This document shows, piece by piece, positions 54,850 through 64,000 of a DNA stretch of 64,000 nucleotides (position 1 is the stretch's first letter; each line of letters starts with the position of its first letter). Source of the stretch: Bradyrhizobium arachidis. Its GTDB lineage: Bacteria; Pseudomonadota; Alphaproteobacteria; Rhizobiales; Xanthobacteraceae. The stretch spans positions 9,317,501-9,381,500 of the forward strand of contig NZ_CP077970.1 of NCBI RefSeq assembly GCF_024758505.1, given 5' to 3'. Position numbers and translations under genes: made by a program. The notes beneath the pieces are model-generated. The model made no database searches and was not told the DNA's origin. It saw nothing but the letters and a program-made list of their open reading frames with translations.

Positions 54850-56292
54850 ATGTCTGCCTCCACCTCCGCCGTCAACGATCCCGCCTATATCCGCGCCCGT
54901 GCGATGGAGACGCTGTTCGAGCGGCTGGAGAATCTGTGCGAAGGCGCGATCGCGATCGATCGCGCTGGCCGCGTGGTCTACGTCAACGAGAAATATCTTG
55001 CCTCGCTCGGGCTGAAGCATACCTCCGAGGCGATCGGCCGGCCGATCGAGGAGATCATCCCCAACAGCCTGATGCGGAAGGTGGCGGAGACCGGGGAGCC
55101 GATCCTGCTCGACATCATGGAGCTTGGCGGCGAGCAGCTCGTGGTCACGCGCATGCCGATCGAGGACGAGAACCGGAAGGTGATCGGCGCGATCGGCTTC
55201 GTGCTCTACGACCATCTGGAGAGCCTAAAACCCCTGCTCGCCCGCGTGGCGCGGCTCGAGAGCGATCTGCGGCTGGCGCGGCGGCAATTGTCCAATCCCC
55301 GTTCCGCGCGCTTCACTTTCGCCGATTACGTCGGCGCGACGCCGGGCATCGCACAGGCCAAGGAGCTCGCCGCGCGCGCGGCACGGCAGAGCGTCACGGT
55401 GCTGCTGACCGGCGAGACCGGCACCGGCAAGGAGATGCTGGCGCAGGCGATCCACAATGCCTCGTCGCGCGCCGAAAAGCCGTTCGTCAGCGTCAACGTC
55501 GCAGCTATCCCTGACACCCTGATCGAATCCGAGTTTTTTGGCACCGCGCCGGGCGCTTACACAGGCGCCGACCGCAAGGGTCGCGAAGGAAAATTCCGCG
55601 TCGCCGACGGCGGCACGCTGTTCCTCGACGAGATCGGCGAGATGCCGCTCCAGCTCCAGGCCAAGCTGTTGCGCGTGCTGCAGGAGCGCGAGATCGAGCC
55701 GCTCGGCTCCGACAAGGTCTCCAAGGTCGACGTGCGCGTGATTGCCGCCACCAATGTGGACCTGCACAAGCGCGTCAGCGACGGCGCTTTCCGCGCCGAC
55801 CTCTACTACCGTCTCAATGTGCTCTCGATCGACCTGCCTCCCTTACGCGACTGCCTCGACGATCTCCCCGACATCTGCACGCGGCTGCTCGACGACATCA
55901 GCATGACCGGCGACTATGTCGGCGCCAAGATCACGCCGAGCGCGTTCGCAGCGCTCGCCCGATATGACTGGCCGGGCAACGTCCGCGAGCTCCGCAACAT
56001 CCTGGAGCGCGCACTGATCCTGAGCGATTCAGGACGGCTGACCGGCGACGATTTTGCGCGCATTTTGCCTGTTGGCACCGATGCCCGGCCGGTTGCACCG
56101 GCGCGGCCGGCCGGCCTCGTGGTGCCCTATGCCGAAGCGGAAGCCGAGTTCGAGAAGCACACGCTCGAACAGGCGCTCGCCGCCAGCAACGGCCAGATCT
56201 CGGAAGCGGCCAAGATGCTGCGCATCTCGCGTGCGACCTTCTACAAGAAGCTCGCCAAGTTCGGCCTCGCCGCAGGTCCGGCGTCCGTCTGA
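54850..56292 (+). CDS. PAS-containing sigma54-dependent activator (NtrC family)
   Basis: A 480-residue enhancer-binding protein. An N-terminal PAS sensor covers about 20-125 (EGAIAIDRAGRVVYVNEKYL). The AAA+ domain has Walker A GETGTGKE (188-195), Walker B LFLDEIGE and the sigma54-contact loop GAYTGA at 235-240, where the usual second residue Phe is Tyr. A C-terminal Fis helix-turn-helix is seen at about 440-475 (SEAAKMLRISRATFYKKLAKFG). The PAS may bind a small carboxylate. It lies directly upstream of a sigma54 promoter that serves the transporter and CoA-transferase genes. ATG 54850 is clear. Confidence 0.93.
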   Translation: MSASTSAVNDPAYIRARAMETLFERLENLCEGAIAIDRAGRVVYVNEKYLASLGLKHTSEAIGRPIEEIIPNSLMRKVAETGEPILLDIMELGGEQLVVTRMPIEDENRKVIGAIGFVLYDHLESLKPLLARVARLESDLRLARRQLSNPRSARFTFADYVGATPGIAQAKELAARAARQSVTVLLTGETGTGKEMLAQAIHNASSRAEKPFVSVNVAAIPDTLIESEFFGTAPGAYTGADRKGREGKFRVADGGTLFLDEIGEMPLQLQAKLLRVLQEREIEPLGSDKVSKVDVRVIAATNVDLHKRVSDGAFRADLYYRLNVLSIDLPPLRDCLDDLPDICTRLLDDISMTGDYVGAKITPSAFAALARYDWPGNVRELRNILERALILSDSGRLTGDDFARILPVGTDARPVAPARPAGLVVPYAEAEAEFEKHTLEQALAASNGQISEAAKMLRISRATFYKKLAKFGLAAGPASV

Positions 56293-56299
56293 GTTTCGA

Positions 56300-56335
56300 G
56301 ACACGGACGTGTCCGGAGTCTCAGATTCCTGACAC
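56300..56335 (+). promoter_or_regulatory. Candidate upstream activating sites for the sigma54 activator
   Basis: GACAC (56300-56304) and GTGTC (56309-56313) form an inverted repeat with a 4-base gap, and a third GACAC lies at 56331-56335. They sit 80-110 bp upstream of the -24/-12 element, a usual position for enhancer sites. The assignment to the adjacent activator is an inference. Confidence 0.5.
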
Positions 56336-56411
56336 CGCGCCTTGCGCTCTTTTTCCCCTCCCATCGCGCTAACTGCCGGATTCTTGGCCATTTGCCCATG
56401 CGCGCCGCAAC

Positions 56412-56426
56412 TGGCGCGGCGCTTGC
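56412..56426 (+). promoter_or_regulatory. Sigma54 (-24/-12) promoter
   Basis: TGGCGCGGCGCTTGC matches TGGCACG-N4-TTGC in all positions but one. The GG (56413-56414) and GC (56425-56426) are separated by exactly ten bases, as sigma54 requires. Transcription would begin near 56438, about 50 bp before the MHS transporter ATG. Confidence 0.85.
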
Positions 56427-62126: not shown

Positions 62127-62136
62127 GGACCACGGC

Positions 62137-62859
62137 ATGAGCGAGCTTCTCAAACTCTCCGGCGTCCACACCCATATCGGGCGCTATCACATTCTCCAGG
62201 GCATCGATCTCGTCGTCACGCGGGGCCAGACGACCATGCTGCTCGGCCGTAACGGTGCCGGCAAGACCACGACGCTGCGCACCATCATGGGCCTGTGGCA
62301 GGCCTCTTCCGGCGAGATCACGCTCGCCGGCGAGCGCATCGAGAGCCGTGCCACGCCCGACATCGCGCGGCTCGGCGTCGGCTACGTGCCGGAGAGCATG
62401 GCCGTGTTCTCCGATCTTACCGTGAAGGAAAACCTGGTGCTGGCGGCGCGCGACGGGCCGCTCGACGACACCCAGCTCGACTGGATCTTTGGCTTCTTCC
62501 CGGCGCTGCGCCGCTTCTGGCTGTCGCGGGCCGGCAGCCTCTCGGGCGGGCAGAAACAAATGTTGTCCATCGCCCGCGCCATCGTCGAGCCGCGCAAGCT
62601 CTTGCTGATCGACGAGCCGACCAAGGGGCTGGCGCCCGCGATCGTGATGGCGCTGATCGAGTGCCTGAAGGAGATCAAGCGCAAGGGTGCGACGATCCTT
62701 CTGGTCGAGCAAAACTTCTTCGCCGCCCGCGAGCTCGGCGATCATGTGCTGGTCATGGACAACGGCACCATCGTCCATCGCGGCGAAATGGCGGCCTTGG
62801 CCGCCGACGTGCCGCTGCAGGAGCGGTTGTTGGGCCTGAGCCTGGAGACGCATCAGTGA
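62137..62859 (+). CDS. livF: Branched-chain amino acid-type ABC ATPase LivF
   Basis: A 240-residue cytoplasmic ATPase. Walker A is GRNGAGKTT (37-45). GYVPESMAVFSDLTVKENL gives the Q-loop analogue, LSGGQKQMLSIARAIV the signature and LLLIDEPTKGLAPAI Walker B. GPLDDTQLDWIFGFFP is the LivF-type insertion region. ATG 62137 has GAGGA upstream. The stop overlaps the livH GTG by four bases, so translation is coupled. Confidence 0.93.
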   Translation: MSELLKLSGVHTHIGRYHILQGIDLVVTRGQTTMLLGRNGAGKTTTLRTIMGLWQASSGEITLAGERIESRATPDIARLGVGYVPESMAVFSDLTVKENLVLAARDGPLDDTQLDWIFGFFPALRRFWLSRAGSLSGGQKQMLSIARAIVEPRKLLLIDEPTKGLAPAIVMALIECLKEIKRKGATILLVEQNFFAARELGDHVLVMDNGTIVHRGEMAALAADVPLQERLLGLSLETHQ

Positions 62860-63866
62860 CTGAGCTAGCTGCCAACGATCCGCTGCCAAAGCCGAAGCGC
62901 GACCTCGCGCCGATCCTGATCCCGATCGCACTGGCGCTGGCGATGATCCCGCTGATCGGCTCGACCAGCTCCTGGGTGACCCTCACGGTCGCAAGCCTTG
63001 CGATGGGCATGATGATCTTCATCATGGCCTCGGGGCTGACGCTGGTGTTCGGCCTGATGGACGTGCTCAATTTCGGCCACGGCGCCTTCATCGCGGTCGG
63101 CGCCTATATCGGGACGCTGATCCTGCTGCCCTTCGCCGCCGCGATGCAGACGGACTCGCTTCTGATCAACCTCGCGGCACTGGCGCCGGCGGTGCTGCTG
63201 TCGATGGCGGTCTCCGGCGCACTCGGCCTCGTCGTCGAACGCGTGCTGATCCTGCCGGTCTACGGCCAGCATCTGAAACAGATCCTGATGACCACCGGCG
63301 GCCTGATCGTCGCGGAACAGACACTTTACGCGATCTGGGGGCCGGCGATCATTCCGCTGCCCTTGCCCGCCTCGCTGCGCGGCTCGGTCATCCTCGGCGA
63401 CGTCGCGATCGCAAAGTACCGCCTGCTGGCGATGCTGGTCGGCCTCATCGTCTTCGTCGCGATTCAGCTCGTGCTCAATCGCACCAAGCTCGGCCTGTTG
63501 ATCCGCGCCGGCGTCGAGAATCGCGAGATGGTGGAAGCGCTCGGCTATCGCATCCGCCGCCTGTTCCTCGGCGTGTTCATGACGGGATCGGCGCTGGCCG
63601 GGCTCGGCGGGGTGATGTGGGCGCTCTATCGCGAGCAGGTCCACGCCTCCATGAGCGACGACCTCACCGTGCTGATCTTCATCGTCGTCATCATCGGCGG
63701 TCTGGGGTCGATCGGCGGCTGCTTCATCGGCGCGATCCTGGTCGCCATGGTCGCCAATTACGGCGGCTTCCTGCTGCCCAAACTCGCCCTCGTGTCCAAC
63801 ATCCTGCTGATGGTCGCCATTCCGATGTGGCGGCCGCGCGGCCTCTATGCGGTGACCAGCCGATGA
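62856..63866 (+). CDS. livH: Branched-chain amino acid-type ABC permease LivH
   Basis: A 336-residue inner-membrane permease with about eight hydrophobic helices. FGLMDVLNFGHGAFIAVGAYIG is the LivH core, and VERVLILPVYGQHLKQILMTTGG follows. GVENREMVEALGYRIRRLFLGVF is the cytoplasmic coupling loop, and IIGGLGSIGGCFIGAILVAM the final helix pair. Initiation is at GTG 62856 inside the livF stop. The stop overlaps the livM start. The N-terminal polar tail of about 25 residues is longer than usual. Confidence 0.92.
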   Translation: MTELAANDPLPKPKRDLAPILIPIALALAMIPLIGSTSSWVTLTVASLAMGMMIFIMASGLTLVFGLMDVLNFGHGAFIAVGAYIGTLILLPFAAAMQTDSLLINLAALAPAVLLSMAVSGALGLVVERVLILPVYGQHLKQILMTTGGLIVAEQTLYAIWGPAIIPLPLPASLRGSVILGDVAIAKYRLLAMLVGLIVFVAIQLVLNRTKLGLLIRAGVENREMVEALGYRIRRLFLGVFMTGSALAGLGGVMWALYREQVHASMSDDLTVLIFIVVIIGGLGSIGGCFIGAILVAMVANYGGFLLPKLALVSNILLMVAIPMWRPRGLYAVTSR

Positions 63867-64000
63867 TGCTCCTTTCCGGCGATCCGCCGCGCAGCCGCGT
63901 CCTGACAATCGTCCTCCTCGTCATCATCCTGGCGCTGGCGGCAACGCCCTTCATTTTTCCCGGCGCGAAGGCGATGAACGTCGCGGCAAAAATCTGCATC
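63863..64000 (+). CDS. livM: ABC permease LivM, N-terminal part cut by window edge
   Basis: The frame opens at ATG 63863, overlapping the livH stop (ATGATG), or three bases later. Only 46 residues are in the window: a short polar start, then a first membrane helix containing LTIVLLVIILALAATPFIF, then MNVAAKICI, which fits the start of the second LivM segment. The placement after livH on the same strand makes LivM the expected gene. No more can be said without the rest. Confidence 0.8.
   Translation, partial: MMLLSGDPPRSRVLTIVLLVIILALAATPFIFPGAKAMNVAAKICI

Follow-up and report, generated by a model that had tools for sequence, protein, structure and literature searches.

A putative sigma54-controlled block for small-acid uptake and CoA activation in Bradyrhizobium arachidis

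The AtoSC-atoDAEB gene set of Escherichia coli includes a transporter, AtoE, and a two-subunit acetoacetate CoA-transferase. AtoC is described as its sigma54 activator (PMC3162934). HbcR is described as a PAS-domain protein that regulates the catabolism of 3-hydroxybutyrate and is activated by (R)-3-hydroxybutyrate (PMC8694187, PMC10482368). Here we describe a block of genes in a 64,000-base stretch of the Bradyrhizobium arachidis genome (the window: G000:C1:9317501-9381500, in a 9.43-Mb genome on a single contig; G and L numbers are our handles for genomes and loci) that is probably a sigma54-controlled uptake and CoA-activation system like the HbcR and Ato circuits, unusual in that its importers are exchanged between loci. 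The block runs on the + strand and comprises genes for a sigma54 activator (ACT), an MHS-family symporter (MHS), a fused CoA-transferase (CoAT), a solute-binding protein (SBP), LivG, LivF, and LivH, together with the first part of a second permease gene (Table 1). This gene set was not described among the titles and abstract openings matched in the literature.

ACT shares its PAS-AAA+-HTH (helix-turn-helix) layout with HbcR (PA2005, an RpoN-linked Pseudomonas regulator), the two having been compared by layout and description. In six loci from Caballeronia, Cupriavidus, and Burkholderia, a GntP permease gene lies opposite a distant relative of ACT, and four of the six (L172, L179, L180, L185) also hold the dehydrogenase gene within the stretch covered, whereas the Bradyrhizobium targets are MHS, a fused CoAT, and Liv genes, with no GntP or dehydrogenase neighbor of at least 38% identity in the window. 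In Pseudomonas, we take PA2004 and PA2003 to be the GntP permease and 3-hydroxybutyrate dehydrogenase. The Ato system has the same combination of sigma54 activator, transporter, and acetoacetate CoA-transferase, but AtoC is a response regulator, and ACT scores below the NCBIfam AtoC cut-off (294.9 of 714). CoAT resembles YdiF of E. coli (2ahu) in being a one-chain class I CoA-transferase; it aligns to 2ahu over 29-544 and places glutamate E355 on E333, presumably the nucleophile, but differs in about 150 additional C-terminal residues. The closest solved relatives of SBP are RPA4397 of R. palustris (3n0x) and 3nnd, which match nearly the whole chain; the 18 SBP loci read from other genera of the family differ from the block, as neither ACT nor CoAT nor the promoter is present in the stretches covered.

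Promoter and operator behind the activator

An earlier note, made from the letters of the window alone, placed a sigma54 promoter with exact ten-base spacing between ACT and MHS. The sequence TGGCGCGGCGCTTGC at 56412-56426 does have ten bases between GG and GC, and it lies 62 bases ahead of MHS. The motif count alone was discarded as evidence: TGGC-N7-TTGC occurs five times in 64 kb versus 3.18 expected, with 17 of 100 shuffles reaching five, and a stricter form occurs once versus 0.26 expected. Because the first of these counts is near chance, loci were compared, and it is conservation and not frequency that makes the promoter credible. Searches with CoAT, SBP, or ACT fetched 56 Bradyrhizobium loci, of which 53 were usable (L132 and L134 duplicate L038 and L032, and L122 has no upstream sequence); L050 and the CoAT paralogue loci L136, L137, and L156 stand outside this set. 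TGGC-N7-TTGC lies behind ACT in 40 of 40 loci with ACT and before the first gene in 0 of 13 without it, a contrast for which the Fisher value, computed with L122 included, overstates independence, as the loci are homology selected and mutually related.

The 40 ACT loci are arranged as ACT-MHS-CoAT-SBP (24 loci), ACT-CoAT-SBP (10), ACT-SBP (3), and ACT-(permease)-CoAT (3). Conservation of the promoter therefore does not depend on which of these genes, MHS, CoAT, SBP, or a permease, comes next. It is retained in the 10 loci without MHS and in those without both MHS and CoAT (L098, L119, L120), where it faces SBP-Liv. Across 32 aligned gaps downstream of ACT, the sequence varies strongly except at this motif and at the operator. 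The tie that had been drawn between promoter and PAS activator is supported by this comparison, and sigma54 control of the block by the neighboring ACT is a well-supported prediction. The promoter also falls within an inverted repeat of high G+C content with T's after it (56402-56426), which looks terminator-like in a simple scan; conservation of this repeat was not seen in the alignment of gaps.

The GACAC/GTGTC half-sites to which the earlier note pointed fared differently. The exact dyad GACAC-N4-GTGTC is present at 56300-56313, once in the window versus 0.04 expected, but only the window's gap and that of L031 carry it among the 32 aligned (2/32), and it was rejected as a conserved operator. 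The conserved elements are three 18-bp dyads of the type TGTCYGGAATTCCRGACA, the last two overlapping (Table 1), and the conserved stretches of the gap alignment read CGTCTGA..TTCGAGAC, TGTCCGGAGTCTCGGATTCC, and GACA. The window's gap holds three sites that match the consensus at 13 of 18 positions; the whole 64 kb holds six such sites and none better. At the equivalent position, distant relatives carry near-perfect palindromes such as CGTCCGGAATTCCGGACA (L152, L153) and TGTCCGGATATCCGGACA (L150), and in L150, as in the window, the site extends into the stop codon of ACT. No site in L074 or L132 scores 12 or more to the consensus. A search of the 9.43-Mb genome for the 25-mer spanning dyads 2 and 3, with up to three mismatches allowed, gave a single occurrence (backward control, 0). 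A regular expression for dyad 2 matches 37 of the 40 ACT loci, missing L017 and L048 (single-base variants) and L038, and matches no ACT-less locus. We infer from this conservation that the dyads are the ACT operator.

With moderate confidence, we read the block as a metabolite-induced operon for a C4 ketone-body acid, with importers interchangeable behind one regulator-promoter cassette. The PAS domain of ACT would sense the small acid or its metabolite, and ACT would bind the dyads, a set that starts within the stop codon of the ACT gene. Its AAA+ ring would then open the sigma54 promoter at 56412, a predicted step for which the comparative evidence is strong, and transcription would drive MHS-CoAT and probably read on into SBP-Liv. 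The acid would enter through the MHS symporter or the ABC importer and receive CoA from CoAT; class I CoA-transferases use a glutamyl-CoA mechanism. The substrate would most likely be (R)-3-hydroxybutyrate, possibly including oligomers, and acetoacetate, to judge from the neighbors of relatives. The block thereby offers a predicted operator and target for an uncharacterized activator.

Partner genes of distant relatives and the candidate substrate

A survey of 240 genomes of the class finds homologues of ACT in 8 (E ≤ 1e-130) and of SBP in 9 (E ≤ 1e-140), the B. arachidis genome included. In G195 (family f3), G227, and G356 (f35), which are in both lists, ACT immediately precedes SBP-LivGFH and the promoters read TGGCAC/T...TTGC; no ACT match was found within the short loci examined from the five remaining SBP genomes. 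In L150, L152, and L153, from two other alphaproteobacterial families, the order is ACT, upstream activating sequence (UAS), promoter, and SBP-Liv, with SBPs 67-71% identical to that of the window. Other arrangements are ACT-TRAP-SBP-CoAT (L147), ACT-GntP-CoAT (L074), ACT-CoAT (L077), and ACT-GntP-type permease-CoAT (L132, L133, L038, L039); the L132 permease has no Pfam or NCBIfam match and takes its name from relatives that match or are annotated as GntP. In the ACT tree, in which L066 is a long-branch outlier and support is mixed (10 of 20 inner branches are open), L150, L152, and L153 form a group that is separate from Bradyrhizobium and lies with relatives linked to CoAT or GntP, and the ACT/SBP-Liv pairing may therefore have arisen twice or survived reshuffling. 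As a separate observation, L146 has ACT-CoAT followed by a nonorthologous Liv importer (SBP, 28%), the same functions having been paired independently.

Neighbors of ACT were surveyed by tblastn in 25 distant loci. Fifteen are plasmid records of ACT homologues, read among the best 25 of 34 and spread over species, with L169 picked through its SBP match; the other ten are eight whole-genome stretches (L148 and L149 from one genome) and two CoAT loci, and L060 and L066 (about 40%) were excluded. A 3-hydroxybutyrate dehydrogenase homologue was found in 10, GntP in 9, CoAT in 4, SBP in 4, and any of these in 19, whereas the dehydrogenase was found in 0 of 32 SBP loci without ACT; stretches were 10.0-19.3 kb long for the distant ACT loci and 3.2-19.1 kb for these controls, and three dehydrogenase queries came from loci counted in the same survey. 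Each of the three dehydrogenases scanned exceeds a curated 3-hydroxybutyrate dehydrogenase cut-off. Of the 19 loci with partners, 14 have the pattern TGGC(A/G)(C/T)-N6-TGC no more than 400 bases from ACT, compared with 0 of the 6 without, against a background, on either strand, of 1134 in 10000 random 830-base pieces of the same loci.

The annotated plasmid record L169 (Mariluticola) has the order ACT, 3-hydroxybutyrate dehydrogenase, SBP-Liv, and hydrolase, with a promoter-like TGGCACGCATCTTGA that is off consensus at -12. GntP and 3-hydroxybutyrate dehydrogenase genes lie opposite ACT in the annotated plasmid record L172 (Cupriavidus), and the genes opposite ACT in L173 and L186 (Azospirillum) include this dehydrogenase. 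In L148, both genes are on the strand opposite to ACT, the dehydrogenase at a distance of 3.8 kb and the permease at 6.0 kb; in L059 and L083, which have CoAT and no ACT, a dehydrogenase homologue stands just before CoAT.

A CoAT paralogue in the same genome (56%; L156) directly follows PhaE- and PhaC-type class III polyhydroxyalkanoate (PHA) synthase genes and precedes a hydrolase gene. This PhaC scores 388.0 versus a cut-off of 365.3, and PhaE is over the Pfam and under the NCBIfam cut-off. The surrounding run (L156 4040-13808; G000:C1:2894039-2903807) encodes an aldehyde dehydrogenase, an iron-containing alcohol dehydrogenase, PhaE, PhaC, CoAT, the hydrolase, and an AMP-binding enzyme, that is, a PHA cluster with its own CoA-transferase. 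The hydrolase family also ends the Liv runs in L150, L152, L153, L103, L109, L113, and L169, follows MHS-CoAT in L044, and is found downstream of the CoAT paralogue in L136 and close to that paralogue in L137. PhaY2 and PhaZc are known hydrolases of 3-hydroxybutyrate oligomers. The family could not be assigned to such enzymes: the curated models listed are below cut-off, and the nearest solved chains are named only hydrolases. On plasmids of Nitratireductor, Mameliella, and Hoeflea (L174, L175, L176), SBP-Liv ends in a different annotated hydrolase, 23-26% identical to the family above and not counted with it, followed on the other strand by the same five genes, annotated as phosphate acetyltransferase, MaoC, AMP-binding enzyme, enoyl-CoA hydratase, and TetR.

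Because of the distant ACT neighbors, the PHA-linked CoAT paralogue, and the descriptions of HbcR, 3-hydroxybutyrate and acetoacetate are the likely substrate shared by the block. The earlier note supposed that all its parts serve one carboxylic or keto acid; we too would only infer this, and the distant ACT neighbors narrow the acid to these two. Both arise in the turnover of polyhydroxybutyrate (PHB), a process relevant to root-nodule bacteria (PMC6201568). More tentatively, ACT, dyads, and promoter may form a portable cassette that keeps (R)-3-hydroxybutyrate or acetoacetate as its inducer while the importer is swapped among unrelated types (MHS, GntP, TRAP, and two different Liv systems); if so, the RPA4397-family Liv system would serve as an ABC importer of 3-hydroxybutyrate or of 3-hydroxybutyrate oligomers. 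This offers a testable ligand for the solved RPA4397 (3n0x), for which no ligand was found in the literature consulted on this point.

Several observations weigh against this assignment. Six of the 25 distant ACT loci, all from Azospirillum (L170, L171, L178, L181, L183, L187), have none of the partners sought. In L170 and L187, where the ACT homologues are 56% identical, the neighbors are uxuA and genes for TRAP sugar-acid uptake, and ACT seems to have changed partners. The window has no homologue of 3-hydroxybutyrate dehydrogenase at 38% identity or more, the genome has other CoA-transferase genes, and RPA4397 is not named in the main text of a ligand screen. In rhizobial PHB turnover, acetoacetate is described as activated by the synthetase AcsA2 and not by a CoA-transferase (PMC6201568).

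Some other short acid under the same regulation, such as a short-chain fatty acid, 4-hydroxybutyrate, a branched 2- or 3-oxo acid, or an aromatic acid, is a serious possibility, if one we consider somewhat improbable. After its own subfamily, the best-scoring model for MHS is the shikimate transporter, below cut-off (NF007414, 425.8 versus 538). p-Hydroxybenzoate and vanillate are present in the structures 4ey3 and 4eyg, the closest solved SBP relatives in sequence once the RPA4397 family is set aside. The aldehyde and iron-containing alcohol dehydrogenase genes near the CoAT paralogue would also fit 4-hydroxybutyrate, and the six partnerless ACT loci lack 3-hydroxybutyrate-type genes. The dehydrogenase that recurs near distant ACT genes, however, is of the 3-hydroxybutyrate type.

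Distribution of the block and reach of the promoter

Among 79 Bradyrhizobium genomes, ACT occurs in 30, CoAT (at least 85% identity) in 28, SBP in 40, and MHS in 17, with ACT and MHS counted at E ≤ 1e-150. ACT and CoAT occur together in 27 genomes (27/30 with ACT, 27/28 with CoAT); CoAT without ACT is seen in G163, and ACT without CoAT is seen in G024, G126, and G144, the three ACT-SBP genomes. SBP is present in 26 of the 28 CoAT genomes, and the promoter directly faces SBP-Liv in three loci, bearing out the expectation that the Liv genes are conserved next to CoAT in relatives. Fourteen genomes have SBP and no CoAT match, including three that carry ACT, and also G134 (L122), where a CoAT end is cut by the contig. 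MHS is missing from 10 of 34 ACT-CoAT-SBP loci, and a GntP-type permease takes its place in 3 further loci, which lack SBP, so that two uptake routes, as the earlier note had them, are not a fixed set. L050 (Bradyrhizobium macuxiense), in which ACT has no match, carries a GntP permease gene followed by a 70% CoAT. Such a natural deletion series, with and without MHS, CoAT, and the activator, indicates how importers could be exchanged under a regulator that stays with its pathway.

SBP-Liv has a wider range than the rest of the block. SBP relatives (E ≤ 1e-80) are found in 31 of 119 family genomes, and SBP-Liv occurs without ACT in 10 loci of the genus and 18 of other genera in the family. In these 18, whose SBP-Liv genes are whole or partial at a contig end, no ACT, CoAT, exact promoter, or UAS was found in the 600 bases before SBP, and we therefore read SBP-Liv as probably the older, wider unit, with ACT and the promoter added in front. 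Weaker TGG(C/T)-N8-TGC matches lie 430 and 541 bases from SBP in L103 and L110. In addition, a 31-base element in the SBP leader (60041-60071), with arms TTGCA...TGCAA, is conserved in 48 of 51 Bradyrhizobium loci of every arrangement (score of at least 21 of 23; absent from L124, L128, and L129), occurs once in the genome, and is matched at no more than 17 of 23 in 18 control loci. It may be the own promoter or operator of SBP-Liv. A PhaR site was considered for it and by eye did not fit the sites given in PMC6201568.

The independent occurrence of SBP-Liv and this leader both tell against a single operon and could mean that the sigma54 unit consists of MHS and CoAT only, with SBP-Liv as an older neighbor that has its own promoter and another substrate and receives at most read-through; the 135-base gap between CoAT and SBP, counted from GTG 60107, would fit as well. 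We consider this arrangement unlikely. The promoter directly faces SBP-Liv in L098, L119, L120, L150, L152, and L153, and ACT is paired with the same SBP family in L169; between CoAT and SBP, the + strand shows no terminator-like site, and a scan for sigma70-type promoters found no match at the leader or anywhere in 54600-63900. It is very improbable that the promoter is a chance match and the target of ACT lies elsewhere, as the near-chance motif count in the window might suggest, given its presence in 40/40 versus 0/13 loci and the single genomic occurrence of the 25-base UAS. In our preferred reading, a single regulated operon, the earlier interpretation thus keeps its promoter-activator tie and Liv genes within the promoter's reach, and it loses the half-sites as conserved operator and the two fixed routes.

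Gene assignments and neighboring genes

The genes that had been named on the + strand are borne out in place by reading frames and by Pfam and NCBIfam models (Table 1). ACT comprises PAS (residues 26-118), sigma54-interaction AAA+ (162-327), lid, and Fis-type HTH (432-471) domains in Pfam; its Walker A motif reads GETGTGKE and its sigma54 contact loop GAYTGA, and with 233.1 bits for PF00158 and 48.2 bits for PF02954 it is a sigma54 enhancer-binding activator. MHS belongs to the MHS symporters by its TIGR00883 score. CoAT is a single YdiF-type chain of fused alpha and beta halves and is below the FadX equivalog cut-off (NF052271, 407.1 versus 750).

Table 1. Features of the block, in window coordinates
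Feature	Position	Strand	Basis
ACT, PAS-AAA+-Fis sigma54 activator	54850..56292	+	Pfam, reading frame
UAS dyad 1 CGTCTGAGTTTCGAGACA, overlapping ACT stop codon	56286..56303	+	13/18 to consensus TGTCYGGAATTCCRGACA, alignment
UAS dyads 2 and 3, overlapping, TGTCCGGAGTCTCAGATTCCTGACA	56310..56334 (56310-56327, 56317-56334)	+	Alignment, consensus score
Putative sigma54 -24/-12 promoter TGGCGCG-GCGC-TTGC	56412..56426	+	Motif, conservation across loci
MHS-family symporter	56489..57799	+	TIGR00883, 463.8 bits (cut-off 443.45)
CoAT, fused class I CoA-transferase, YdiF type	57890..59971	+	Profile models, alignment to 2ahu
SBP leader element ATTGCAATGTTCGCAGCGTTGTGCAAATCGC	60041..60071	+	Conserved in Bradyrhizobium loci
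SBP, Peripla_BP_6 solute-binding protein	60107..61291	+	Pfam; closest solved relative RPA4397 (3n0x)
LivG-type ATPase	61362..62126	+	Pfam / NCBIfam models
LivF-type ATPase	62137..62859	+	Reading frame, Pfam / NCBIfam models
LivH-type permease	62856..63866	+	Pfam / NCBIfam models
Second Liv-type permease (LivM position), start only	63863..64000	+	PF02653, 97.5 bits; L088 6364-7449

The most likely start of SBP is the GTG at 60107 and not the ATG at 60047. Its structure model is poor (pLDDT 58.5), and the fold list derived from it was used for entry titles only. SBP, two ATPases, and two permeases in one run make this a Liv/HAAT-type importer; the Liv-type genes of the "complete" importer described earlier are present, but the second permease, which begins near 63863, ends about 950 bases past the window and lies mostly outside it. 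Among the matches listed (the best 25 models for the two ATPases), all curated Liv and Urt models, for importers of branched-chain amino acids and urea, are below cut-off. An Rfam scan of 54700-63900 gave a single match, below gathering. Two GGDEF-EAL genes flank the block, one upstream in the window (52811-54556) and one on the other side (L088 7593-10733). L009 starts too late to tell whether it carries the upstream gene, which was found (at least 70%) in 32 of 36 Bradyrhizobium CoAT loci checked.

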